64,000 nucleotides of DNA from Candidatus Thioglobus autotrophicus. Its GTDB lineage: Bacteria; Pseudomonadota; Gammaproteobacteria; PS1; Pseudothioglobaceae. The notes beneath the pieces were generated by a model. That model searched no databases. It saw nothing but the letters and a program-made list of their open reading frames with translations, and was not told the origin of the DNA. Of the stretch, positions 49,786 through 64,000 are shown in pieces. The DNA is taken from NCBI RefSeq assembly GCF_001293165.1, contig NZ_CP010552.1, positions 868,001 to 932,000 on the forward strand, given 5' to 3'. The translations under genes and the position numbers were made by a program. Position 1 is the first letter of the stretch, and every line of letters begins with the position of its first letter.

Positions 49786-49792
49786 ATTGATT

Positions 49793-49806
49793 TGGTGGAG
49801 ATGGCG
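49793..49806. other. tmRNA/tRNA 3'-end-like 14-mer, candidate attachment site
   Basis: TGGTGGAGATGGCG matches the reverse complement of a tmRNA 3' end (E. coli ssrA: TGGTGGAGCTGGCG) at 13 of 14 positions as I remember it, and then diverges. Its place exactly between a terminator and the accessory genes is what an att remnant of a tmRNA-targeting element would show. No integrase gene is seen beside it. Confidence 0.4.
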
Positions 49807-49897
49807 TACATTAAACTGCTTACTTAACCCATTGATTTATAATTAAAAAAAGACCTCAGTTGGGGCTCTTACATACAATTCTACATACATTTTTTCG

Positions 49898-50088
49898 GCT
49901 AAATTTCAACATTTAGCTATATAGGTTATTTGTAAATAACCAGTGTTTTAAATTCACATGAGCGCTCTTCTTAAATTTAAAAAAAGTTACATAACATAAT
50001 AGTATGAATGTTAGTTGTGTTATGTGTTTGTTTGTAAAAAAAAAGTAGCGAGCGTTAGCGTTGCTACTGGGCGTTGCGTAGCAACCCC
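49898..50088. other. Block of five consecutive inverted repeats upstream of the polymerase-like gene
   Basis: Stems: GCTAAAT/ATTTAGC (49898-49917), GGTTATTTGTAAATAACC (49924-49941), ACATAACA/TGTTATGT (49989-50025), AGTAGC/GCTACT (50044-50068) and GTTGC-GTA-GCAAC flanked by GGG/CCC (50069-50088). No ORF of note lies in 49734-50106. The block ends 18 bases before the GTG start of the polymerase-like gene. It could be a replication origin, an att/recombination region, or a structured non-coding RNA; the sequence alone does not decide. Confidence 0.55.
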
Positions 50089-50106
50089 TTCTAAGGATTG
50101 TTTATT

Positions 50107-51402
50107 GTGAAGAAGATTGAATTTAAGACTAAAGTTATTTCTAATTGTGAATTATATGTTTCTAATACTGCACGTAAGTTAAGTGCTGAAACCGGTTACC
50201 CTTTAAGTAAGGCTTTATTGAAAGTAAGCCATTTCCTAGAATTGGCTGTTTTTGAATTTATTAGATGTGAGCTTAGTACCGATAGTGATTTAGTTGCTTT
50301 AAAAAGGCGTTATATTAGCAAGTCGAAACTTGCTAATAGTTTAGGTACATTTAGAGTTTCCAAGAAAAGATTTTGTGTGCTTAAGACTGTCAACTCAATT
50401 AACCTTTTATTTTTTGATGTTGCGGTTGGTTCTAAAGTTACAGGTAAAACCTCATTAGTGCAAGCAACTAATTTCTTCCAAAAAATACTTGATGAAGCAA
50501 ATACTAATAGTGCGATTGTAACGAGTGCGATGTTTGATGAGTTTATTGATGATTTGGCAGACCCATTAAAATATGACAAGGTTTATATTGATGCCAATTC
50601 TTTACGTCATGCTGTGACTCAGTACCATAAGGCTCATGATATAAAAGTTGCTAATAGTTTGTTACATTTCCATACCGTGCTTGGTTACTTGCCACACATT
50701 ATTAATGAAAGCCCATTTGGACGTAAATATTATCGCGGTATTAATTTACAAGGCGCTTCAAAGAGAATTCGACAAGATGCTTTGCCAAACGCTATTGAAA
50801 TTGATATTAATAGTGCTTCCAATGAATGGCTCATGCAACAGGCTAAGTTGTACGGTTTAGATTATTCTTTGATTGCGGAGTTTAGTAAGCATAAAAAATT
50901 AGTAAGGATAGGCATCGCTATTGATGTATTTGGTAAAAATTATTCAGATGACGAATTTAATAATATCAAGCAGTGCATTACCGCTATCGGCTTTGGCGCT
51001 CGCATGAATAATATAAGAGGGAATGCTATTCACGACATTATAAAAAACGGGGTTCGTCGTAGTAAGTTCACAAAGAATTGGTTTATTAAGGGGTATTGTC
51101 AGGAAATGGTTGAGATTGGTAAGGCCGTTTATAGGGCAAACAAAGATCAGTTAAAAGATGTAGATTGCCTGTATTCTGTAACCAAGACAAATAGGAAGTT
51201 ATTTAAGAAGGCGAAATTAATGGCTTATTTATATCAGCATTTTGAACGAGATGCGATGGATACTGCTTTTGCTGGGTTTCAAAATAATATTAAGTTGATG
51301 GTACATGATGGGTGTTATGCTGAAGGTCTGAGCGATAAAGACATTGACATAATTAAGCGTAGATTTAGAAAGAATAGTTTAACTGTGTCAGTGGGTGGTT
51401 AA
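50107..51402 (+). CDS. Divergent family-A (Pol I-like) polymerase palm protein
   Basis: 431 residues from GTG 50107 (AAGGA 9 bases upstream; TTG 50098 is an alternative). Numbering from the GTG, a NLQ motif at about 214-216 and KRIRQ at about 220-224 precede EIDINSASNEWL (motif A-like, Asp 233). IKQCITAIGFG follows (O-helix-like K288 with Phe-Gly at +8/+9, as in KxxxNFxxxYG), then KLMVHDGCY (motif C-like, His 400-Asp 401). The A-to-K distance (55) is close to that of E. coli Pol I (53), and K-to-C is 113 against 124. No exonuclease domain is seen in the first 200 residues. I do not recognise the protein; the assignment rests on motif order and spacing. Confidence 0.55.
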   Translation: MKKIEFKTKVISNCELYVSNTARKLSAETGYPLSKALLKVSHFLELAVFEFIRCELSTDSDLVALKRRYISKSKLANSLGTFRVSKKRFCVLKTVNSINLLFFDVAVGSKVTGKTSLVQATNFFQKILDEANTNSAIVTSAMFDEFIDDLADPLKYDKVYIDANSLRHAVTQYHKAHDIKVANSLLHFHTVLGYLPHIINESPFGRKYYRGINLQGASKRIRQDALPNAIEIDINSASNEWLMQQAKLYGLDYSLIAEFSKHKKLVRIGIAIDVFGKNYSDDEFNNIKQCITAIGFGARMNNIRGNAIHDIIKNGVRRSKFTKNWFIKGYCQEMVEIGKAVYRANKDQLKDVDCLYSVTKTNRKLFKKAKLMAYLYQHFERDAMDTAFAGFQNNIKLMVHDGCYAEGLSDKDIDIIKRRFRKNSLTVSVGG

Positions 51403-51476
51403 TAGCTAAATAATGACAATTGTTTACCTGTTTGGACAATGCCTAATCCTAAGAGTGGATGATAAATTGCGACTAA

Positions 51477-51506
51477 TTGTTGAAATTAACCTCAATGGTT
51501 TATAAT
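51477..51506 (+). promoter_or_regulatory. Putative promoter of the protease operon
   Basis: TTGTTG (51477-51482), an 18-base spacer and a perfect TATAAT (51501-51506). The first ATG (51505) overlaps the -10, while the second in-frame ATG (51514) begins exactly 7 bases after it, giving a leaderless start. Confidence 0.5.
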
Positions 51507-52800
51507 GAAACATATGGTTTATAAATTTAACAATATAAAAACAATATTATTTTTCACTCTGTTTAGTGTAGGCACTCAGGTGAGTTTTGCCACCTGGGAT
51601 AATAAAATTTCACAGTTTGTTAATGATATTGTCAATGTCAATCCTCAAGAAGGTTCTGTGTATGTAAGTGAAATTCTTGACTCGTCACAAAATAGAATTT
51701 ATCTTCCATTTTCTAATCGAATACATGAGGTTTTAAGCTCATCGCTTATCAAAAGCGGCATTTCAGTCACTAACAAATATTTTGACGCCAACCTTGTGCT
51801 AGCAATTAGTTATACAAAATCATTTAAAGGGTTGTCTTTGTATGGCAGCGTAATGAATAGCGAAGGAAAAAACATTTCTAGTGGCTCAATGTTTCTTAAA
51901 TCAGAAGCATTGCCTAGCAACTGGCAGAATAGATCGCTAAGAGATATTTCTTATGAAATCGCAGGTAAGTTTGATGAGCAGTTGGCCGGACAAAGAGTTA
52001 ATGCTGTAATTTCTGGATTGACAGGTGGAAAATCTAATTCTGATGAATTTATTAGTGATTTTACTGTTGCTATGAATCAATATATGGTGGAAGATCTCAA
52101 CAACCTTCCTTCTATCATTGTTAAAGATAAGTCTAATATCAATCAACAAGTAAACAGGCTGAAAGGTAGGTTTAGAGTGGGTGGCAACAAAGTAAATTTA
52201 AACTATAAGCTATCAAAATCAGACGGAACAGTTATTGCAACTGCCTCAACTGAATTCACAATGAGCACATCTATTCCGCAAGGTATGTCAATGTATCCTA
52301 GTAACAAGAATATTGTTAAAGATACATTTGATAATATTGATCCAAATGAAGGAGGGATATCTGTTGCTGCTTGGGTTAATCATGAAAGCGCTGTTTATAG
52401 AGATGGAGATCGTTTAGAGATAAGCATTAGGCCAGATGTTGATGCTTACATTAGAGTGTTTTACGTTACTGTTGATGGCACAATCTGCCAGATAAAGCCA
52501 ATCTCTGAAAAAGACTCAGGGTTTCTTTCGGCAGGCACCATACATGTAATTGGCGGTAAGGCTGACAATGAATTAGAAGAACTTATCATTACTGATGAGA
52601 CGATAGGTCAAGAAACGATTAAGATTTTTGCATCATTAACCCCAATTGAAGAAAGGTTTTTACCAATAAAACGAGTCGAAGGGGTAGACTATGCTTGTAT
52701 GGACGATGATTACAAATCTTTAAAGATCGGGATGGCGAAAGCATTGCAAAAGAGGCGCAATATATATCCAGTAAATGAAATTAAAATACTAGTTAAGTAA
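51505..52800 (+). CDS. Exported DUF4384-type protein, first gene of protease operon
   Basis: 431 residues (428 if ATG 51514 is used, which the promoter position favours). Sec signal peptide to about residue 29 (FSVGTQVSFA). The middle (about 35-280) resembles CsgG/FlgO-like domains that sense or build outer-membrane assemblies (RIHEVLSSSLIKSGISVTNKYFDANLVLAIS), though weakly. Residues 298-380 look like DUF4384 (YRDGDRLEISIRPDVDAYIRVFY, then GTICQIKP and GTIHV). DUF4384 domains are often found with caspase-like proteins, which fits the two caspases downstream. The next gene starts 18 bases on. Confidence 0.7.
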   Translation: MKHMVYKFNNIKTILFFTLFSVGTQVSFATWDNKISQFVNDIVNVNPQEGSVYVSEILDSSQNRIYLPFSNRIHEVLSSSLIKSGISVTNKYFDANLVLAISYTKSFKGLSLYGSVMNSEGKNISSGSMFLKSEALPSNWQNRSLRDISYEIAGKFDEQLAGQRVNAVISGLTGGKSNSDEFISDFTVAMNQYMVEDLNNLPSIIVKDKSNINQQVNRLKGRFRVGGNKVNLNYKLSKSDGTVIATASTEFTMSTSIPQGMSMYPSNKNIVKDTFDNIDPNEGGISVAAWVNHESAVYRDGDRLEISIRPDVDAYIRVFYVTVDGTICQIKPISEKDSGFLSAGTIHVIGGKADNELEELIITDETIGQETIKIFASLTPIEERFLPIKRVEGVDYACMDDDYKSLKIGMAKALQKRRNIYPVNEIKILVK

Positions 52801-52818
52801 CTAAATAGGAGAAATAAA

Positions 52819-54579
52819 ATGAATTCAATAACAGCACAGCTCTCAAAAAGTATTGTATTAATTATGAGCTTAATATTGATGGCGGGATGTCAAGCCAATA
52901 AGACTACGGCTATCCAATTAAATGAGGCGACTTTATTAGACAAGCCATTTCCACAACAAAATGAAAAACAGTTTATCTATAACTTCGAAGACCATAAAAC
53001 AGCTGTTTCAGAAGACATTGAAGATGAGAATGAGGCTGTAAAAAAAGCGGCACAGAAGGCTGTAGCAGAGTTAAAAATTAAGGCTTTAAGGCAAACAGCA
53101 AATGAGATAAATTCAATTCTTGTAAGTCCTTTGTCAGGTAAAGAGCTAGATTTACGCATTAAGAAGGCAGCATCAATTAATGCGGACTTTGTTGATGAGT
53201 TTAAGTTGCTAGAGCAAGAGACTGATTCGACTCAAATGCTGTTTACGACAACTCGACCAAAAAATGTAATTTTAACTGGTTATTTTAAGATTAACAGAGC
53301 TGCGCTGAAGAGCTTTATAGTTGATACGGTAAAAACGGTAACCACATCTGTTAGTGAAAAAGATGTCCTTTCAGTTTCAGTTCCTACTAGCACCAAAAAT
53401 ACATTTATTGCATCGTTTAATAATGTGACTAAAAGAGTTCCAGATGATGCAGTCAATCATGAAGCTACGAGGACAAAGCTTGTTAATGAATTAAAGTTAA
53501 AAGCAATAAATGAAGCGGCAGATGAAGTTAATCACGCACTATCTCAGCCAATGGATTTTGATGAATTTAATCGTGCTATTACGAAGGCAAATAAGAATTT
53601 CTCAGATTATATTTCTGAGTGGAAGTTAACCAATCAAGTAGTTGATCAGAAAAATACTTATCTTGGCACTACTGAAAGTGTTCGCCTGAGTGGCTGGTTT
53701 GCAGTAGATAAGACTAAACTACGTAGAGCTTTAGTTGATGGGCGTGCAATTACAACTGTCGCAAAATATCGTACTTATGTTGAAGCGTTTTGGAATGTAG
53801 AGGATAAAGATGTTAATCCTGAAGTTATGAGTGTTGTAATTGGCAACATTGAAGATCAATTTTCACAGAGTGGTTATGAGGTTGTTGAATTTGAAAGGAT
53901 TAAAGGTGATCTAGTTGAGTTGTTGAATAAAGAAGAAGTGTCAGGTATCTATTCTAGTAATGAACTCGAAAGGTTTAATGCAAATCTTGAATTAAGAAAT
54001 ATTGATTCTAAGTTTGAAAATGGTAAAAGAGTCCTCGCTGAATATGCCGACTTATTAATTGGTGTAACTATTAACTCTATGGAGGTTAGTAATCGCATGA
54101 TGAAAGTTAGACTTACAGTGGATGCGACATTATTTGAGAATGGCGAATGGATGAAGTTAGCTAGTACGGACCATACAGGGTCTATTCCTTATGTTCGAGG
54201 TGATACAGAAGGTTTAATTGCCATAGCAAAACGTGTAGCTCTTTCAGCAGCTGCAGATCTTGAGAAAAAAGCAAGAAAACAGATCTCACTTAGAAAAACT
54301 AAGGAAAGTATTAAGTTAGATGAAGAGCGTGAATTCACTCTAGTGTTTAATACTTTAGATTCTAGCTCATTTAGCGCTTTGAGAAAAACAGTAAAAAGTG
54401 GTTCCGACTGGGCTTATAAGGGAGCAGATCCTAAAAATAAAATCATTAGACTTGGTTATAGAGGACAAATTGATGGGCTATCTGATGCTATTGAAGACTT
54501 CTTATCAGGCTCTAGTCTAAAACTAGGCGACCCCGAGTTTTCAATTGGACGTAACCGTATTATTTTTGGTAAGGAGTAA
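52819..54579 (+). CDS. Large lipoprotein with tandem internal duplication
   Basis: 586 residues. Lipobox LMAGC (Cys 24), so membrane anchored. Two tandem segments of about 95 residues (about 83-175 and 221-313) align with each other: ELKIKALRQTANEIN / ELKLKAINEAADEVN and ILTGYFKINRAALKSFIVD / RLSGWFAVDKTKLRRALVD. The middle (about 335-500) is like LPS-associated or FlgT-like domains (LLIGVTINSMEVSNRMMKVRLTVDATLF). The last 80 residues (FTLVFNTLDSSSFSALRK...) resemble the repeat unit of the next protein. It ends 3 bases before that gene. Specific function unknown. Confidence 0.7.
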   Translation: MNSITAQLSKSIVLIMSLILMAGCQANKTTAIQLNEATLLDKPFPQQNEKQFIYNFEDHKTAVSEDIEDENEAVKKAAQKAVAELKIKALRQTANEINSILVSPLSGKELDLRIKKAASINADFVDEFKLLEQETDSTQMLFTTTRPKNVILTGYFKINRAALKSFIVDTVKTVTTSVSEKDVLSVSVPTSTKNTFIASFNNVTKRVPDDAVNHEATRTKLVNELKLKAINEAADEVNHALSQPMDFDEFNRAITKANKNFSDYISEWKLTNQVVDQKNTYLGTTESVRLSGWFAVDKTKLRRALVDGRAITTVAKYRTYVEAFWNVEDKDVNPEVMSVVIGNIEDQFSQSGYEVVEFERIKGDLVELLNKEEVSGIYSSNELERFNANLELRNIDSKFENGKRVLAEYADLLIGVTINSMEVSNRMMKVRLTVDATLFENGEWMKLASTDHTGSIPYVRGDTEGLIAIAKRVALSAAADLEKKARKQISLRKTKESIKLDEEREFTLVFNTLDSSSFSALRKTVKSGSDWAYKGADPKNKIIRLGYRGQIDGLSDAIEDFLSGSSLKLGDPEFSIGRNRIIFGKE

Positions 54580-54582
54580 GTT

Positions 54583-56973
54583 ATGAAAAAGCTATTTTCT
54601 ACTTTACTTATACTGGCCACGCTATTTTCTAATGCAAGCTGGGCAGAAGGCACTAAGACGCTATTGATTTCTGATTCTAAGGAGTTAATGAGTGAGGCCA
54701 AAAGTTATTTCTCTGATGTTTTAAATGTCATGTCATCTGATGTTGAAAATAACTACATATCAAAACAGTTAATCACAGGAGAGGGCTCGAGGATTTCATT
54801 TGATGACCTGTTTCATCAAAAATCATTTAGAGATAGCTCGGCTTTACAGCAGCTGAAAGATGAATATGCGCCTAAGACGATTTCACTGGTTTGGATTGAA
54901 AGCGAAGACGTTAAAGACTACAAGGCTTACGGCTTAAAAAGAAGTGTTTTAAAGCTTAGATTACGAGTGATCGATGCAATAAGTGGCAGAACGATTACTG
55001 ATAAGTCTATTTCATATAAACCAAGGTACAAGGTTGAGCCTAAGGATGAGGATGATAAGCTTGATGCAAGAAAGGCAACATTAGCAAAAGCTTTGTCTGA
55101 ATTTGATTTAGATAAGGTTAAGAATTCTATAAGCAGTTATTTAGACGGTTCGGACTCCATGAGCAACAAGTTCCGTGTTGTTGTTAATGATGTTAAACAA
55201 AAAGATTATTTCGATTGGAAAAATAAGATGTTTGACTTTATGGGCCCTATCGGTGCAAACAACCTAAGAGAAAGCTACGATAAAGCTAGTAAGGTATTAA
55301 CAGTTCGTGGTGATACTGGTAGTAATGTTTCTGATTTTTTTCAATCAATGTATCAGAAAGCTACAGACTCAAAAACCTTTGATGGTTTTGATATTGATAG
55401 GTCTGGCAATATGATCGAGTTTAATAAGCAACAAGCTGACAAACTTACTGTTGTTATTAATAATATTGCTCCAAGTGATTACCGCTCTGTTGGTGCTGCA
55501 ATGGATTCTATTATTAAGAATCTTGATGTTAAAGAGTTAGAAAAATCATACAGTCGAGAAGACTTCCAGCTTACTTATGTATTTGATACGGTTGATAAAG
55601 CTGTCGATCTAGACACAGAGCTTTGGAAGCGAATTAGCGGCAATTCTAGTCTTGAAAAAATTGTACAAGATAGTGGTGCGGGTAATGTACTTGGCTATTT
55701 CTTTAATAATGATAGGGCTGATAGTCGACATATTGAAGTTACTGTTAGAAATGTTAATGAGGATGATTATTCCAAAGCGGGCAGAATGCTGATTACCACT
55801 GTTAAACAAATTGAAGGTGTTGATAAGTTTAAATATGATTACTCTGAGGAGGATCAAGTAATCAATATGACTTTCTTTTATAAAGGTGAAAATGCCTATG
55901 CAGTCGATAGTGTAATTTGGGATCGCATATCAAACAATAGAGATTTGTCAGGTCTTAAAGCGGGTCTTATTGATGAGAATGCTCTAGAGTATTTATTCAG
56001 TGAAAAAGACGATGGTAAGAATAGTGATCGTGTTTTAATTGTAATGAAAGGTGTAAGTGGTAAAGATTATAAGCACGTGTCGACTGCTTTTGCTAAAGCG
56101 CTTAGGTCAGCTAGAGACGTTCGTCATGTAAGATATGGTTACAGTGTAAAGAGGCAAACAATTACATTTAGAGTTAAATACAGTGGCGATGGGATGTTTG
56201 CACTTGAAGATGCTATTCAGCTAGCAATGTCTAAGGATGACTTATTAAAAGATGTTGAGCGTGGCCAGGACAAAGGCGGAAGATTAATCTATCATTTTAA
56301 TAGTGAAGATTCGGATGATTCGTCTTCATATTCTAATGATCTGTCTACTAGTTTTTCTGGGTCTTTAATAGATAAGTTAGATAAGCAAGTTGTTTTTATT
56401 TCAGCGTACGACGGCGATAAAGGATCGTCTGGATCGGGTTTTTTTGTTAGTAAAAATGGCTACATTATGACTAATGCCCATGTAGTTGATGGCTCTGATC
56501 GATTGTACGTAACAACACTAGATGGCGATAGAATTAAGGCTGAAATAATTGATTCAAATGCCAAATTAGATCTTGCGTTAATAAAGCTAGTCACAGTAAA
56601 AAAAAACTTTCCAGCTAACAGGATTGGTAATAGTAACAATCTAAGAAAAGGCCAGCCAATCATCATGATTGGTAACCCGTTAGGGGCTCGTTATGAACAT
56701 ACAGTGCTCACAGGGATTATTAGTGGCTTTAATCGCCATAATGGCTCAATACAACTATCCATCCCATCTTACCCAGGAAGTAGTGGCTCACCAGTCTTCA
56801 ATAGCCAGGGTAGAGTAATTGGCGTCATGAGAGCTAGAGCCGTTGACTCAAAAACAAGTACATACAAGATTAAAAAAGAAGAGGTGACCTTTACGAGTTA
56901 CGAAGGTGTTGAAAATATTGGCTTAGCAGTTCCAATTAATTATGCAAAGCCTATGTTGAGTATGGCCAAGTAA
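54583..56973 (+). CDS. Exported trypsin-like (HtrA-type) serine protease with four N-terminal repeats
   Basis: 796 residues. Signal peptide to about 21 (NASWA). N-terminal domain about 25-190, then four repeats of about 95 residues beginning near 197, 287, 383 and 483 (RVVVNDVKQKDY, TVVINNIAPSDY, EVTVRNVNEDDY, LIVMKGVSGKDY). The C-terminal peptidase domain (about 595-796) has all three catalytic residues: H633 in TNAHVVDG, D663 in KLDLALIKL and S734 in PGSSGSPVF. There is no PDZ domain. It lies between lipoproteins and caspase genes, so it could process or be activated by them (inference). Confidence 0.88.
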   Translation: MKKLFSTLLILATLFSNASWAEGTKTLLISDSKELMSEAKSYFSDVLNVMSSDVENNYISKQLITGEGSRISFDDLFHQKSFRDSSALQQLKDEYAPKTISLVWIESEDVKDYKAYGLKRSVLKLRLRVIDAISGRTITDKSISYKPRYKVEPKDEDDKLDARKATLAKALSEFDLDKVKNSISSYLDGSDSMSNKFRVVVNDVKQKDYFDWKNKMFDFMGPIGANNLRESYDKASKVLTVRGDTGSNVSDFFQSMYQKATDSKTFDGFDIDRSGNMIEFNKQQADKLTVVINNIAPSDYRSVGAAMDSIIKNLDVKELEKSYSREDFQLTYVFDTVDKAVDLDTELWKRISGNSSLEKIVQDSGAGNVLGYFFNNDRADSRHIEVTVRNVNEDDYSKAGRMLITTVKQIEGVDKFKYDYSEEDQVINMTFFYKGENAYAVDSVIWDRISNNRDLSGLKAGLIDENALEYLFSEKDDGKNSDRVLIVMKGVSGKDYKHVSTAFAKALRSARDVRHVRYGYSVKRQTITFRVKYSGDGMFALEDAIQLAMSKDDLLKDVERGQDKGGRLIYHFNSEDSDDSSSYSNDLSTSFSGSLIDKLDKQVVFISAYDGDKGSSGSGFFVSKNGYIMTNAHVVDGSDRLYVTTLDGDRIKAEIIDSNAKLDLALIKLVTVKKNFPANRIGNSNNLRKGQPIIMIGNPLGARYEHTVLTGIISGFNRHNGSIQLSIPSYPGSSGSPVFNSQGRVIGVMRARAVDSKTSTYKIKKEEVTFTSYEGVENIGLAVPINYAKPMLSMAK

Positions 56974-56980
56974 GGAAAAT

Positions 56981-57757
56981 ATGAAAAAAATTATATTTAT
57001 TATTGGAATAGTGTTTTTGTCAGGGTGTGGAATGACGCCTGTTAAACATATAGATCCAAATTTTATTGATAATTTAAGAGAAGGTAGAGTAACCCTTTCA
57101 GGTGGTGGTTGTGGCTTTACTTGGGGGGCAAGCAATCAAGCTATTCTTTCGAATCTTTCAGGGGAGAGATGGCATGATTTAGCTAACCTTATAAAGTCAC
57201 TAGAGTGCTCACAAGATAGTGCTTATTATTTTTTAGGAAGGTCAGCTGAAGGTTTAGGGTTTAAGAATGCCGCCAAAAAGTATTACAAAACATCAATTAA
57301 TAATTCAAAAGTAGGTAATCATTTGTATTCTTGTGCATCGATGCTTGAATATAACTGCTGGGGATTTAAGTTTCCTCAAGATTCAGAAACACGCTTATCT
57401 CAGTTAAAAATATATCAATTCAAGGATATGCCGATGGTTTTAGAGGTTACCGAAAGTGGAAGAACTTTTAAATTATCAGGAATAGTTAAAGACATATTAG
57501 GAAATCAAAATGATGTTTTTGGATTTTTCAACGATTCTGGTATAAAGGTTTGTTCGGGTGAATTTAATCTTAATAGGTCAAAATCAAGAGGAAGTGTTTC
57601 ACTTAATTGTTTTAATGGGAAGTTTAGTGGGACTGGCGAGGTTCTAAGTTCTTCTTATAATGAGAGCCAAGGCACTTATAGTGGTGTTGGATTGATTAAG
57701 ACACCAAGTACTCAAATAAGAATGCTGTATGGACCTAATGTATCAAGTATTGAGTAG
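56981..57757 (+). CDS. Lipoprotein with shared C-terminal beta-rich domain (copy 1)
   Basis: 258 residues. Lipobox FLSGC (Cys 16). Residues about 60-120 form two or more helical TPR-like segments (YFLGRSAEGLGFKNAAKKYYKTSINN). The last 110 residues share a clear pattern with the protein at 60363-61187: VCSGEFNLN, SLNCFNGKFSGTGEVL, YSGVGLIKT and YGPN. The repeating G/E/S pattern suggests a small beta sheet. Unknown family. It starts 7 bases after the protease gene. Confidence 0.65.
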   Translation: MKKIIFIIGIVFLSGCGMTPVKHIDPNFIDNLREGRVTLSGGGCGFTWGASNQAILSNLSGERWHDLANLIKSLECSQDSAYYFLGRSAEGLGFKNAAKKYYKTSINNSKVGNHLYSCASMLEYNCWGFKFPQDSETRLSQLKIYQFKDMPMVLEVTESGRTFKLSGIVKDILGNQNDVFGFFNDSGIKVCSGEFNLNRSKSRGSVSLNCFNGKFSGTGEVLSSSYNESQGTYSGVGLIKTPSTQIRMLYGPNVSSIE

Positions 57758-57775
57758 GATTAAGTAATAAAGAAA

Positions 57776-60343
57776 ATGAAACTAAAAAACACAATATTAA
57801 CTCTATTACTATCAATTAGTTTAATTGGCACTACCTATGCTGATTATAGCGATGGCCTAAAATACTATAATGAAGGGGATTATGGTCAAGCATTTGTTAA
57901 GTGGAGCTATATGGCCAAACAGGGTGATTCTGCTTCACAGGCAGTCTTAGGTTTTATGTATTTAGATGGCAAAGGTGTAGCACAAGATGATAAACGGGCA
58001 GTAAAGTGGTATCGCAAGGCGGCCGATCAAGGTAATGTTGGTGCCCAATTCAATTTAGGCGTTATGCATTCAGATGGCAAAGGTGTAGCACAAGATGATA
58101 AACAGGCAGTAAAGTGGTATCGCAAGGCGGCTAATCAAGGCTATGCTAATGCCCAATCCAATTTAGGCTGGATGTATGAAAATGGCAAAGGTGTAGCACA
58201 AGATGATAAACAGGCAGTAAAGTGGTATCGCAAGGCGGCCGATCAAGGTAATGCTAATGCCCAATACAATTTAGGCTGGATGTATGAAAAGGGCGAAGAT
58301 GATAAACAGGCAGTAAGGTGGTATCGCAAGGCGGCTAATCAAGGCTATGCTAATGCCCAATCCAATTTAGGCCTTATGTATTCAAATGGCAAAGGTGTAG
58401 CACAAGATGATAAACAGGCAGTAAGGTGGTATCGCAAGGCGGCCGATCAAGGCTATGCTAATGCCCAATACAATTTAGGCCTTATGTATTCAGATGGCAA
58501 AGGTGTAGCACAAGATGATAAACAGGCAGTAAGGTGGTATCGCAAGGCGGCTAATCAAGGCTATGCTAATGCCCAATCCAATTTAGGCCTTATGTATTCA
58601 AATGGCAAAGGTGTAGCACAAGATGATAAACAGGCAGTAAGGTGGTATCGCAAGGCGGCCGATCAAGGCTATGCTATTGCCCAATACAATTTAGGCCTTA
58701 TGTATTCAGATGGCAAAGGTGTAGCACAAGATGATAAACAGGCAGTAAAGTGGTATCGCAAGGCGGCTAATCAAGGTAATGCTAATGCCCAATACAATTT
58801 AGGCTGGATGTATGAAAAGGGCGAAGATGATAAACAGGCAGTAAGGTGGTATCGCAAGGCGGCCGATCAAGGTAATGCTAGTGCCCAATCCAATTTAGGC
58901 CTTATGTATTCAAATGGCAAAGGTGTAGCACAAGATGATAAACATGCAGTAAGGTGGTATCGCAAGGCGGCCGATCAAGGTAATGCTAGTGCCCAATACA
59001 ATTTAGGCTTGATTTATGAATATGGTAATAGTGTGCTTGATAAGAGTTATAAGTTGGCAATTGAATATTATAAAAATTCTATTAAAGGCGATGGTCTTAG
59101 CACAGATTCAAAAAATTTAGCTGTGCAAAAAATAGCCAAACTAACCGCTAAATTAAAACCAAACAAAGAAAAAAGTAGTTTTGCCGAATTATGGCAACAG
59201 TATGGTGGTGATTCATATACTGCTACTGATGATTCTACAGATGATAATGATCAGACTGCACTGGTCATCGATGAACAGCCCCCGGTTATACATATAACTC
59301 GAGGTGACAACATCTCCATCACTGAATCACAGACCACACTAAGTGGTTTGGCTATTGATGATTCAACAATTGCAGAAATTATTGTTGACGGGGATGCGGT
59401 AGCTATTAGCACTTCAGGAGGTTTTAGCGCCAAGTTGTATGTACCTTTTGGTAAGAAAGAGGTGTTAGTAAGCGCTACAGACGCTAAAGGTAATACTGCA
59501 ATTAAGAGTGTAACGATTACTAGAAAAGAAGCAACTTATAAAAATAAAGATAAAAAACTTATACCGCCGTTAGATAGTAAAGCAAACAATCCTAATGCAG
59601 TGGCCTTAATTATTGGCATTGATAAATATGAAGCGATTGCTAATGCTCAGTGGGCTGAATCTGATGCAGGAATGTTTTATGATTTTGCCAATAAATCGTT
59701 AGGAATATCAACAGATAGAATAAAACTCATAAGAGGTGATAAATCTGACATGAGAGGGATTTGGAAATCAGTAGAGCAATGGCTTCCAGCATATGTCGAC
59801 GAAAGGAAGAGTGATGTGTATGTTTATTTTGCCGGTCATGGCCTTGCTTCTGAGAATGGAGACGATGTTTATTTAATACCTTGGGATGGAGATCCTGAAC
59901 TTCTAAAAAGAACAGCATTAAGAAGAAGTGAGTTTGTTGAAACACTTAAATCTTTAAATGCTGCAAGTGTTACCTTGTTTATGGATACATGCTACTCAGG
60001 AAAAGCTAAAGGTGGTAAGGGAGTATTAGTTGCAGATGCTAGGGGCCTTAGAATTGTCAAAAAAGACAAAACTTCGGATCTGCCGCCTAACTTTACTTTG
60101 TTTTCAGCAGCTGCGAATGATGAAACTGCTCGAAGCCATCCTTCATTAAAACATGGGCTTTTTAGCTACTGGATGATGCGCGGGTTAGGTGGTGAAGCGG
60201 ATATGAATAATGATAGCAAGTTAACAAATGGCGAGCTTCATTCTTTTGTTAGTAAAAAAGTACAACAAACCGCAACTACTTCAGGATACAAGCAGCATCC
60301 TCAATTAGTTGGTGACAAAGACAAAGTTATCGCATCATGGTAA
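57776..60343 (+). CDS. Exported Sel1-repeat / Ig-like / caspase-like protease (copy 1)
   Basis: 855 residues. Signal peptide 1-22 (GTTYA). Eleven Sel1-like repeats (about 50-435), mostly 36 residues and nearly identical (GKGVAQDDKQAVRWYRKAAD type). Next come a motif KSSFAELWQQYGG, an Ig-like beta domain (about 502-582, IVDGDAVAISTSGGFSAKLYVPFG) and a C-terminal peptidase C14 caspase domain (about 605-850): ALIIGIDKYE, catalytic H688 in YFAGHG and C739 in MDTCYSG. The Sel1 part may bind partners. It appears to be an exported orthocaspase; whether it is self-activated is unknown. Confidence 0.9.
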   Translation: MKLKNTILTLLLSISLIGTTYADYSDGLKYYNEGDYGQAFVKWSYMAKQGDSASQAVLGFMYLDGKGVAQDDKRAVKWYRKAADQGNVGAQFNLGVMHSDGKGVAQDDKQAVKWYRKAANQGYANAQSNLGWMYENGKGVAQDDKQAVKWYRKAADQGNANAQYNLGWMYEKGEDDKQAVRWYRKAANQGYANAQSNLGLMYSNGKGVAQDDKQAVRWYRKAADQGYANAQYNLGLMYSDGKGVAQDDKQAVRWYRKAANQGYANAQSNLGLMYSNGKGVAQDDKQAVRWYRKAADQGYAIAQYNLGLMYSDGKGVAQDDKQAVKWYRKAANQGNANAQYNLGWMYEKGEDDKQAVRWYRKAADQGNASAQSNLGLMYSNGKGVAQDDKHAVRWYRKAADQGNASAQYNLGLIYEYGNSVLDKSYKLAIEYYKNSIKGDGLSTDSKNLAVQKIAKLTAKLKPNKEKSSFAELWQQYGGDSYTATDDSTDDNDQTALVIDEQPPVIHITRGDNISITESQTTLSGLAIDDSTIAEIIVDGDAVAISTSGGFSAKLYVPFGKKEVLVSATDAKGNTAIKSVTITRKEATYKNKDKKLIPPLDSKANNPNAVALIIGIDKYEAIANAQWAESDAGMFYDFANKSLGISTDRIKLIRGDKSDMRGIWKSVEQWLPAYVDERKSDVYVYFAGHGLASENGDDVYLIPWDGDPELLKRTALRRSEFVETLKSLNAASVTLFMDTCYSGKAKGGKGVLVADARGLRIVKKDKTSDLPPNFTLFSAAANDETARSHPSLKHGLFSYWMMRGLGGEADMNNDSKLTNGELHSFVSKKVQQTATTSGYKQHPQLVGDKDKVIASW
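57923..58978 (+). repeat. Tandem 108-bp Sel1 DNA repeats
   Basis: Ten units starting at 57923, 58031, 58139, 58247, 58343, 58451, 58559, 58667, 58775 and 58871. Eight are 108 bp; the fourth and ninth lack 12 bp (GEDDKQ in place of GKGVAQDDKQ). Units 5-6 (58343-58558) and 7-8 (58559-58774) are nearly identical 216-bp blocks, so expansion occurred in two-unit steps. An eleventh degenerate copy starts at 58979. Confidence 0.95.
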
Positions 60344-60362
60344 TGTAGTAAAGGATAAAACA

Positions 60363-61187
60363 ATGAGAAAAATTATATTTATTTTGTTTGGGGTAGTGCT
60401 ACTTTCAGGGTGTGTAAGCAACCCTGTCAATCAATTAACCAGCACTTTAGGAATTGATTCAGCTGAAGCCTATAGAGTTTCATTACCGTATAGTATGAAC
60501 GATCAAGCATGGAATACTAATGACTTGATAAGGCCGTATATGAGAAAAAGAAAGCCCGCTCAAAGTGGTTTTATAAATGATATTCGTAATATTAAATTCG
60601 TTGATAGGTGGCTTGACAGAGATAGTAACAAATCAAAAGCAATATTTGCTATCGATCCACAAAGCTGTAAAGACAGTAGTCGATATGCATCTTGGAATTT
60701 TAGAACTGACTTGGCTGCAATAACAAGAGCAAAAGATGGTTGTGACAAGACTGCTCAGAAAATAAATGAACAGCTAGGAAAAGCCTGTAAATGTAGGCTT
60801 GTTGCGCTGAATGACACCTTTTTTTATAACGCTAATACATATAAACAGCATACAGGAAGCTTTCCCTGGGTAATGGAGGTTGTTGAAAGCGACCAAACTA
60901 TAAAAATTTCGGGCATGGTTAGTTTGGTTGGCGATAAGCAAGAAAGATTTAACCTTGTTAATGACTCAGGGCGTAACGTTTGTTCAGGGCGATTTGATTT
61001 TAATAAGGGCGGATCAAAAGGCGATATTTCATTAAGTTGCTTTGATGGAAAAATTAATGGCGATGGCGAAGTATTGAGGGCTGAATACAATAAAGATTTG
61101 CGTATGTATTCAGGTACAGCATTAATTAAAACTCAAAAGGGTGAGATGAGAGTTGTGTATGGGCCAAATGCTTTAAAAATTAAGTAA
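60363..61187 (+). CDS. Lipoprotein with shared C-terminal beta-rich domain (copy 2)
   Basis: 274 residues from ATG 60363. Lipobox LLSGC (Cys 17). The open frame reaches back to 60309, but those residues overlap the caspase gene end and lack a signal peptide. N-terminal 150 residues unrecognised, with several cysteines (PQSCKDS, DGCDKT, KACKCRL). Residues 168-274 are paralogous to the C-terminus of the lipoprotein at 56981: VCSGRFDFN, SLSCFDGKINGDGEVL, YSGTALIKT, YGPN. Each copy sits directly before a caspase gene. Confidence 0.65.
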   Translation: MRKIIFILFGVVLLSGCVSNPVNQLTSTLGIDSAEAYRVSLPYSMNDQAWNTNDLIRPYMRKRKPAQSGFINDIRNIKFVDRWLDRDSNKSKAIFAIDPQSCKDSSRYASWNFRTDLAAITRAKDGCDKTAQKINEQLGKACKCRLVALNDTFFYNANTYKQHTGSFPWVMEVVESDQTIKISGMVSLVGDKQERFNLVNDSGRNVCSGRFDFNKGGSKGDISLSCFDGKINGDGEVLRAEYNKDLRMYSGTALIKTQKGEMRVVYGPNALKIK

Positions 61188-61222
61188 TACAGAAGTGGAA
61201 ATTATAAAAAAGAAGGCGTAGT

Positions 61223-64000
61223 ATGATTAATATGAAAGCTCTAAAAATATTCTTAACAGTTGTAATGTTGCAAGTTGGCATGCAGGCACATTCTGATGAT
61301 GCATTAGCTGATCTTATTAAGGGTATTTTAGGCGCTAAGTTGATAGAGGGTATAGCTCAAGAGTTTAATAATGAAGATGCCAGCCAACAAAACTATTCAA
61401 GTGATAATCGTGTTAATACCAGCTCTGGAAATGAGGGTAGTCTCGGGTATCAGTACTATGTTCTAGGGCAGAAAAGCTGTAAAAGTGGAGACCATCAAAA
61501 AGCACTTAAATGGTTTAGGGAATCTAAACAACAAGGCTATGTTCGTTCTGTTGAGAATGTTTATAAGGCTTGTTCTGGAAAGAGTGTGCAATATTCTCAA
61601 AGTGAGGTTGAGAGCAACAAGGGTAGTCTTGGCTACCAGTATTATCGTATAGGTAAAAAGCACTGCAAGAAGGGTGAAACTCAGCAAGCAATAAAGTGGT
61701 TTAAAGAATCTAGAGGCCAGGGTTATAAGTGGGCAGATAGAGCCATTGATAGCGTATATTCAAAATGTCGTGAAAGCACAGCACAGGTATTAAGTAGAGA
61801 CAAGGTGTGCTCTAATGGAGTATTTGCAACTGCCTATGTTGATAATGAATGCCCTGGTATCACCAACAGATGGTCTAATAATACAAAGGTGAGTTCTAAT
61901 TCCAAGGCGGTTACTAGCGAGAATATAACAATAAAAGCACCAAAGTACGTTGAAAACGCAGCGGTTGTACCAGTTACAGTAGTGTTTGGTGATCGAGTAC
62001 ATAGTGGTGACAAAATAAAGCTTTATGTGAATGGCAAGCTAGCCTTGCAAGTTAACCCAAAAAAAGGCAGTTACATTGATCAGATTTCAACACGAGTTAT
62101 TCTTGAAAGAAAGAGCAGCCGTATAAAAGCAAAAATAATACGCTTAAGTGGGGTTGTTGAAACCAAAACATCTAACAAGATTTCTGCAGATAATTCTGCA
62201 TCAATACCAAGTAGTTCTGATAGTGATAAAAAACATAAGCTTAAAGAAAAAGATGGCAACATTAAGATGTTGATCAGGAACAAGATGGGTAGTGGTAAGC
62301 ACATCTGGAAAATTAAGTTAGCCTCATCTTCAGGTGAAGTTTTTGTTAAGTTGTCACCGTTACTCTCTAAAAATCCATATCTTCAGATAAAGGGTAACCA
62401 TGATAATGCCAAGTTAGTAGAAACACTTTATGGTAGTTGTAACAAAGATTATTCAAGTTCAACTAAAGAGCCACATTGTCTTTTTGAGCAAGAAAATTGG
62501 TATGCATCATTAGGCCAGAATAAGGAAATTGCTCAGGAGGATATTCTGAACGAGTTAAAAGTAAATTATATTAATCAAATCGCTTCACGAGTTAAAAATA
62601 AATGGCGCTACCAAGGCGCTAAAGATCACTGGGGCTGTGATGTGTACATCTTGCAAGATGTGGATGGCAATGTACAAAGTGTGAATTTACAGTCTTGTAA
62701 TATTGATAACAATGCGAAAGCAAAATCGTTTAAAGATTCGATTGAACGTGCGGTATATAAAGCATCACCATTGCCATCAGCTCCAGACCAAAGTGTTTTT
62801 GATCGCGAAATATTATTTCACTTTGTAATTAATTCAAATAATAACCCAGCAAAAGTTGTGCAGAAGAAGTCTAGCTTCTCCGATTTATGGGGTCAGTATG
62901 GTGGATCAATACTAGATTCAAACACTAACAGTTCTTCCGATAAAGGTGATTCATATAGTATTTCTGAGGCTGATACACAGCCACCAGTAATTCGTTTTAA
63001 TCATAGTGACTCTATGGCGGTAAATGACAAAAAAGCAACAATAAGCGGTGTGATTAAAGATAGTTCAAAGATAACAGAATTACTTATTAAAGGCAAAAAG
63101 GTTGCAATAGATGAGAATGGTAATTTCAGCATATCTAGATATGTGCGCTTAGGGAGGAATACGTTTGATATTGTGGCATTAGATGCGTTTGGCAATAAGG
63201 CAGCCAAGGTTGTTACAATCACTAGAAATAAAGACATTGTTAAAAATTTAGATAAGCCTTTAGATTTGCCATCATTCAAAGGCAGAAAGGATAAAAATGC
63301 AGTAGCTTTGATTATTGGCCTTGATCAGTATGAGAATATAGCTAGAGCCCCATGGGCGGAATCGGATGCGTCTGTATTTTTTGATTATGCACAGCAATCA
63401 TTAGGCATCCCTGCTGATAGAATTGCCCTTATCACTGGAGATAAGTCTGATAGAAGTGGAATTTATGACTCATTGGATATGTGGCTACCTACTATGGTTG
63501 AAAAAGGCCGTAGTAATGTTTATGTGTATTTTGCTGGGCATGGATTGGCAACAGCTAATGGTGAGCAGGCATATCTAATTCCTTATGATGGAAATTTGGA
63601 GAGCTTACGTAGAACAGCAATATCTAGAAAAGAAGTTATCAGCGTTTTAAAAGATTTAAAAGCTAAAAGTGTGACTTTGTTTATGGATACTTGTTACTCT
63701 GGAACTCCGAAGGGCGGTAAAGGTACGTTGGTTGCTGATTCTCGTGGACTGCGCATTGTTAAAAAGGATAATTTTTCTTCGCTACCTAAAAACTTTACAA
63801 TTTTTTCAGCAGCTTCAAATCAGCAAACTGCTAGTAGCCATCCAAATTTAGAAAATGGTTTATTTAGTTACTGGATGATGCGAGGCTTAGGCGGTGATGC
63901 AGACAGTAATAACGACAGAAAAATCACAAATGGTGAGCTTCATAAGTTTATTAATAAAAATGTGAAGAAGGCTGCAGCACTAATGGGTCGCAAGCAAAAC
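61223..64000 (+). CDS. Exported multidomain caspase-like protease (copy 2), 3' end outside window
   Basis: 926 codons to the window edge, no stop. Signal peptide about 1-23 (GMQAHS). Two related segments of about 60 residues at 72 and 134 (GSLGYQYY...ALKWFRES, TPR/Sel1-like). Residues about 236-322 resemble SoxY; about 450-537 resemble a TolA/TonB C-terminal domain (YKASPLPSAPD). KSSFSDLWGQYGG and an Ig-like domain (about 587-670) follow, as in copy 1. The caspase domain starts near 692: ALIIGLDQYE, H773 in YFAGHG and C824 in MDTCYSG, the same 51-residue spacing as copy 1. ATG 61223 is 35 bases after the lipoprotein stop. Confidence 0.88.
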   Translation, partial: MINMKALKIFLTVVMLQVGMQAHSDDALADLIKGILGAKLIEGIAQEFNNEDASQQNYSSDNRVNTSSGNEGSLGYQYYVLGQKSCKSGDHQKALKWFRESKQQGYVRSVENVYKACSGKSVQYSQSEVESNKGSLGYQYYRIGKKHCKKGETQQAIKWFKESRGQGYKWADRAIDSVYSKCRESTAQVLSRDKVCSNGVFATAYVDNECPGITNRWSNNTKVSSNSKAVTSENITIKAPKYVENAAVVPVTVVFGDRVHSGDKIKLYVNGKLALQVNPKKGSYIDQISTRVILERKSSRIKAKIIRLSGVVETKTSNKISADNSASIPSSSDSDKKHKLKEKDGNIKMLIRNKMGSGKHIWKIKLASSSGEVFVKLSPLLSKNPYLQIKGNHDNAKLVETLYGSCNKDYSSSTKEPHCLFEQENWYASLGQNKEIAQEDILNELKVNYINQIASRVKNKWRYQGAKDHWGCDVYILQDVDGNVQSVNLQSCNIDNNAKAKSFKDSIERAVYKASPLPSAPDQSVFDREILFHFVINSNNNPAKVVQKKSSFSDLWGQYGGSILDSNTNSSSDKGDSYSISEADTQPPVIRFNHSDSMAVNDKKATISGVIKDSSKITELLIKGKKVAIDENGNFSISRYVRLGRNTFDIVALDAFGNKAAKVVTITRNKDIVKNLDKPLDLPSFKGRKDKNAVALIIGLDQYENIARAPWAESDASVFFDYAQQSLGIPADRIALITGDKSDRSGIYDSLDMWLPTMVEKGRSNVYVYFAGHGLATANGEQAYLIPYDGNLESLRRTAISRKEVISVLKDLKAKSVTLFMDTCYSGTPKGGKGTLVADSRGLRIVKKDNFSSLPKNFTIFSAASNQQTASSHPNLENGLFSYWMMRGLGGDADSNNDRKITNGELHKFINKNVKKAAALMGRKQN

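Follow-up and report, generated by a model that had tools for sequence, protein, structure and literature searches.

A TV-Pol-type divergent family-A polymerase gene in a tmRNA-inserted integrative element, with relatives in small uncultivated phages

Introduction

What is a short protein with polymerase-like motifs doing in an accessory region of a bacterial genome, and whose nucleic acid would it copy? The window analysed here, a 64,000-nucleotide stretch of the genome of Candidatus Thioglobus autotrophicus, contains an intact ORF (50107-51402, + strand, GTG start) that automatic annotation would call hypothetical. An earlier note had read it as an orphan family-A polymerase-like palm protein of 431 residues, perhaps the replication protein of an integrated element; both the ORF and the length of 431 aa proved right. 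We propose an explanation for this gene that we regard as probable, namely that it encodes a minimal family-A polymerase of the TV-Pol type, belonging to an integrative element of ~23 kb that is inserted at the tmRNA gene, and copying that element when excised.

Results

Motifs of the 431-aa protein

The features of the gene, all on the + strand, are as follows.

50107..51402, +, TV-Pol-type divergent family-A polymerase gene (ORF, AlphaFold model, fold matches, family alignment)
50107..50562, +, N-terminal domain, residues 1-152: helices, then a helix/hairpin unit (AlphaFold of the domain alone)
50722..50772, +, beta-hairpin Arg206/Tyr208, NLQ 213-215 and RIRQ with Arg222 (R206, Y208 and R222 in 39/39 sequences)
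50803..50805, +, motif A Asp233 in strand 230-235 (model and alignment)
50968..50997, +, motif B/helix O, Lys288 to Phe296-Gly297, with Phe284 at the Pol I Arg754 equivalent (K288 and G297 in 39/39)
51235..51246, +, Gln377..Glu380 (YQxxE), invariant in 39/39
51304..51309, +, motif C His400-Asp401 at a beta-hairpin turn (39/39; aligned with Pol I H881-D882)

Each of the motifs named earlier could be located: N213-L214-Q215, R220-I-R-Q223, the motif A-like D233, K288 with F296-G297 at +8/+9, and V399-H400-D401-G402. The spacings also agree with those given, at 55 residues for D233-K288 and 113 for K288-D401 against 53 (705-758) and 124 (758-882) in E. coli Pol I, whose numbering we checked.

Standard libraries are silent on this protein. 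No model in Pfam, PHROG or NCBIfam describes it, the best family-search scores being noise (Methyltransf_24 0.004, MADS3 0.005, phrog_27018 0.0095), and phmmer and hmmsearch found no match among PDB sequences. The suggested HMM search against PF00476 gave a negative answer, the protein not being among the matches at E<=10; PF00476 is also silent on the phage contigs that bear relatives of the polymerase.

Predicted structure and profile comparison

An AlphaFold model built with a 39-sequence family alignment (mean pLDDT 90.7, pTM 0.80) bears out the family-A palm. The top Foldseek matches in the PDB are all DNA polymerases I, theta or nu (E 8.6e-6), and VIA-align superposes residues 154-431 of the model on Pol theta with Z 15.0 (rmsd 3.8 over 261 residues) and on Bst Pol I with Z 14.7. 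The match to the polymerase I/theta fold spans residues 144-431; the family-A fold is limited to this part and no exonuclease family was matched, in agreement with the absence of an exonuclease domain noted before. The palm that structure prediction was meant to look for is there. In the model strand 230-235 contains D233, helix 281-295 contains K288, and the H400-D401 pair occupies the turn of hairpin 395-399/402-405, as in family A. Aligned by hhalign with a Pol A profile (E 3.3e-5; portal control E 0.31), the family places K288 on K758 and H400-D401 on H881-D882, so that motifs B and C are in register.

Among viral models (BFVD), the two best matches are uncharacterised and come from uncultured Caudovirales (E 7e-23 and 4e-18); they are followed by an unnamed 776-aa protein (2.4e-8) and by the replication proteins of Qinghai Lake virophage (7e-6) and Zamilon (5e-5). 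These larger proteins, including those of the virophages ('TVpol'), have a TM of about 0.5 and an rmsd of 4-6; for the virophage proteins and the 776-aa protein both values are better than those for Pol I.

The same comparisons bear on whether the product might be RNA, made by a single-subunit RNA polymerase or RNA primase. Five residues after D233, where Pol I has its steric-gate Glu710, the family has Val, Ser, Ala, His or Ile, and the motif B spacing (K-x7-F/Y-G) is also that of T7 RNAP. Against this, a T7/SP6 RNAP profile, built from two sequences only, aligned with E 0.2 and probability 0.3, just around motif C, compared with 3.3e-5 for Pol A; the top 50 PDB fold matches include no RNA polymerase; nothing of comparable size here corresponds to the long N-terminal half of T7 RNAP; and CCPol, the tested TV-Pol, favours dNTPs (PMC7581432). 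By profile and fold ranking, single-subunit RNA polymerases, which the earlier note had also proposed to search, appear not to be the closest relatives; a T7-like enzyme was rejected as closest kin on that ranking, and we consider an RNA-making enzyme quite improbable.

Residues 1-152, folded alone, gave a confident model (pLDDT 88.8) with weak winged-helix-like matches, the best being MarR-like at Foldseek E 0.045 and the best VIA Z 5.4. None of these stands above background, so no known fold is assigned to the N-terminal domain and a new one is not claimed.

Relatives and conservation

The designation 'orphan' did not survive. The genome itself (1.51 Mb, one contig) encodes another intact copy (P0002), with 45-48% identity to the window protein, and a third that is truncated, and in all ~50 relatives were found in this genome, bacterial islands, plasmids, phages and viral contigs of 23-36 kb. 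These retain R206, R222, D233, R267, K288, G297, Q377, E380, H400 and D401. The members of the 39-sequence alignment are 18-29% identical to the window protein and share 11 invariant positions, namely those ten and Y208; therefore the motif set is more than chance. Gln377 is probably the equivalent of Pol I Gln849, which is invariant in the Pol A set.

That the gene is a degraded remnant of an earlier element, its fold kept and its function lost, would fit the truncated third copy and an integrase 18 kb away. The frame is full-length and all catalytic and family-invariant residues are kept, and P0002 is likewise intact; since both copies are intact at 45-48% identity, the frame has been maintained over a long divergence. 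Loss of function is accordingly the reading to which we give least credence.

Beyond the genome itself, sequence and profile searches found 1 match in 57 near relatives, none in 369 genomes of the same class and 2 in 398 genomes of the phylum, so the family is rare in bacteria. Matches by tblastn came from two Polaromonas plasmids and one Desulfovibrio phage, and one search step further reached Microcystis phages including Ma-LMM01. A hand-made degenerate DNA pattern for the block GRxY....LQ......R..AL matched 23 viral contigs, all of which (23/23) encode full or contig-truncated members, and 3 bacterial contigs, all likewise encoding members; two further matches (L040, L041) are PilY1-like and were set aside as chance. 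Automatic back-translation patterns found no relatives in the viral or genome collections. A profile-guided scan led to 40 viral loci.

The tree joins the window protein to P0002 (100/99) and places the pair, with weak support, among phage members; a member from one bacterial island (G020), the Polaromonas plasmids and two more bacterial members form a separate group (99/97). Some loci deserve separate mention. At L038:2802-7848 the genes that follow a bacterial member code for an excisionase-like HTH protein, a restriction-modification enzyme of MmeI type and a DEAD-like helicase. The member encoded at L007:7362-9665 by an unannotated 142-kb Desulfovibrio phage measures 767 aa and has a long C-terminal extension. 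In the window, 39 bp upstream of the gene (49966-50004) are 82% identical to the upstream regions of both other copies; this stretch is a possible promoter or origin.

The integrated element at ssrA

The elements of the island that contains the gene are listed below; the tmRNA gene (ssrA) was identified by ARAGORN.

49791..49806, +, attL-like repeat TTTGGTGGAGATGGCG (two genome matches at <=1 mismatch; control 0)
49807..64000, no strand assigned, in-window part of the ~23.1-kb integrated element, which continues to about 72870
51505..60343, +, cargo: DUF4384 protein, lipoprotein-like protein, trypsin-like protease, lipoprotein-like protein, Sel1-repeat and caspase-domain protein
Genome 940870 (window coordinate 72870, beyond the window), second att copy ATTGGTGGAGATGGCG, the ssrA 3' end, with one mismatch

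The polymerase lies at one end of the ~23.1-kb element; at the ssrA end are a P4-type tyrosine integrase with an arm-binding domain (PF00589/PF13356), AlpA (PF05930) and a resolvase (PF00239). The gene preceding the polymerase is outside the island and the gene that follows it encodes a DUF4384 protein, also of 431 aa. In a related genome (G010) the gene on the left flank of the island is ~660 bp from ssrA, as against 23 kb here; the site is thus differently occupied in kin, as would be expected of a P4-type element inserted in ssrA. Taken together, the att repeat, the tmRNA, the integration genes and the spacing in G010 place the polymerase within an ssrA-inserted element. The suggestion of a replication protein of an integrated element is supported by this residence, and we infer that the window polymerase would prime and replicate. 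The host genome encodes its own PolA.

We envisage the following course. AlpA-type regulation and the P4-type integrase would excise the element as a circle, with the predicted joined att sequence TTGGTGGAGATGGCG; the polymerase, probably primase and DNA polymerase in one chain, would copy the circle or its single-stranded intermediate; and the integrase would return the element to ssrA. The N-terminal domain would replace the exonuclease and the extra thumb, and may bind the template or a partner. Polymerase and integrase are at opposite ends of the element and so may act independently of each other.

The run of exported or lipoprotein-like cargo extends from window 51505-60343 on to genome 936.9 kb and includes further large proteins; it is possibly a defence or cell-surface module.

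Other elements carrying the polymerase

Four other elements associate a relative with recombination genes. In a second, unrelated bacterium (G672) a tmRNA, a P4-type integrase, AlpA and the polymerase lie inside 4.6 kb; in G020 the order is tRNA-Asn, integrase, small ORF and polymerase; in G627 the polymerase is flanked by a resolvase and a large serine recombinase; and the truncated copy in the genome itself adjoins a tRNA-Leu-linked integrase. Between the truncated-copy locus and the P0002 locus, 1113 bp comprising the upstream region and the polymerase N-terminus are 99.7% identical, and this points to a recent duplication. The duplicated loci are:

L094:4192-7983 (genome 509.2-513.0 kb)
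L095:8543-10552 (genome 546.5-548.6 kb)

The neighbours of the truncated copy in L094 are the tRNA-Leu, a 384-aa integrase, an inverted 345-bp duplicate of the start of that integrase and a G2P-like Rep protein.

These settings help to weigh the main alternative, that the protein is an active family-A polymerase and not a replicase, whether repair, gap-filling or lesion-bypass cargo or a nucleic-acid synthetase with a part in defence. In favour of this are the small size of the protein and its lack of proofreading, the absence of an adjacent helicase and the non-replicative nature of the remaining cargo (trypsin-like protease, Sel1 repeats, caspase domain); in addition, a role in repair or as RNA polymerases has been suggested for the divPolA2 proteins of large phages (PMC11348598). 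Relatives stand beside integrase and AlpA or recombinases in four other elements, though, and the homologue of the small phages is one of their large non-structural genes, with Pol A, Pol B and Pol III alpha not found there. We hold a non-replicative role to be unlikely, and retain replication of the excised element as the preferred reading.

Discussion

Comparison with known polymerases

The TV-Pol (transposon-virus polymerase) family was defined by Iyer, Abhiman and Aravind in 2008, includes the polymerases of the Sputnik, Zamilon and Qinghai Lake virophages and a Ma-LMM01 phage protein, and was proposed to comprise minimal primase-polymerases near the root of family-A DNA and RNA polymerases (PMC2579912). 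TV-Pols share a family-A core of 400-600 aa made up of thumb, palm and fingers without exonuclease, a beta-hairpin Arg, two palm Asp and a fingers Lys, and they reside in mobile elements with a lambda-type integrase, resolvase or transposase, or are linked to a D5 helicase. The window protein likewise has a minimal core that lacks the exonuclease and an RRM-like palm with two Asp (D233 and D401, 39/39), and its island contains an integrase and a resolvase; relatives reside in the four further elements with recombination genes. R206 (39/39), located with strands 195-201 and 207-210, matches the beta-hairpin Arg of TV-Pols as described (PMC2579912); from its place it appears to be the same residue. 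The RxxxK of the fingers is absent: K288 is found in 39/39, and position -4 is mostly Ile, Val or Leu (position 284, Phe in the window protein, with no Arg among the counts listed for the 39-sequence alignment). We therefore call the protein a TV-Pol-type variant and not a strict member. By eye, gp030 of LMM01 also lacks RxxxK, and its sequence similarity to the family is marginal; from the adjoining transposase, gp030 would be the Ma-LMM01 protein of the 2008 paper. No D5-type helicase is fused or adjacent to the polymerase at the window locus.

CCPol of SCCmec was the only TV-Pol studied biochemically as of the 2020 CCPol paper; it extends primers, prefers dNTPs and, together with MP, its partner, can prime de novo from dNTPs (PMC7581432), and its kin are the PolA-SSB pairs (PMC10061031). 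Like the window protein, these are element-borne truncated family-A polymerases thought to act in replication. They differ in that they are described as nearer to Pol I and as keeping part of the exonuclease fold (PMC7581432, PMC10061031), and they are encoded in one operon with a small OB-fold partner and a helicase, whereas no helicase, small SSB-like or OB-fold partner gene adjoins the polymerase at the window locus.

The divPolA2 proteins are also about 430 aa, with an N-terminal globular domain, a palm and no classical thumb or exonuclease (PMC11348598). They accompany a regular PolB, while in the small phages considered below no other polymerase family was found among those searched. Our profile scored 1.5 bits, which is not significant, against the single divPolA2 sequence compared (AUR84708), and a common family with divPolA2 is not supported by that comparison. 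By eye, AUR84708 (L125:25469-26761) shows GGRMYDLGIQNL..R..VYDF, resembling the GRxY..NLQ..R..D block, the comparable block being GGRMY..QNL..R..VYD; the two may possibly belong to the same wider family.

With Pol I and T7 gp5 (PF00476) the family shares the palm-fingers architecture, an NLQ-like block and equivalents of K758, G767 and H881-D882. Unlike them it gives no PF00476 match and has no exonuclease, and of the DYSQIE, RxxxK and HDE motifs it keeps D, K and HD and lacks the equivalents of E710, R754 and E883, the last being replaced by Gly, Ala, Cys or Ser.

Phage relatives

The viral contigs other than obvious fragments are mostly 23-36 kb and tailed-phage-like, and may be incomplete; in the one examined we found a portal, large terminase, major head protein and tape measure. 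DNA_pol_A was absent from 23 viral contigs, and DNA_pol3_alpha and DNA_pol_B from 14, with controls working in each case; protein-primed PolB (PF03175) gave no match in the phages, but its control was equally silent. The homologue thus appears to be the sole recognisable DNA polymerase of these small uncultivated phages among the families searched, and is likely the genome-replication polymerase of the related small phages. Contigs of the phage group include L042/L078-L079, L046/L080-L081, L065/L084-L085, L067/L090-L091 and L032/L092-L093. The phage collection held no isolate matching the L028 member.

Implications

What is new is a subfamily missed by standard libraries that occurs in intact integrative elements and in phage contigs where no other polymerase was found. 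As a tentative extension, which we rate as possible and well short of probable, the subfamily could be a self-contained primase-polymerase that serves as the only replicative polymerase both of ssrA and tRNA islands and of a large group of as yet uncultivated tailed phages of 23-36 kb. If so, it would start chains itself without the steric-gate Glu and the fingers Arg, possibly with ribonucleotides, and its N-terminal domain would stand in for a separate SSB or primase. Whether one small family-A chain can prime and replicate a genome is thereby made a directly testable question.
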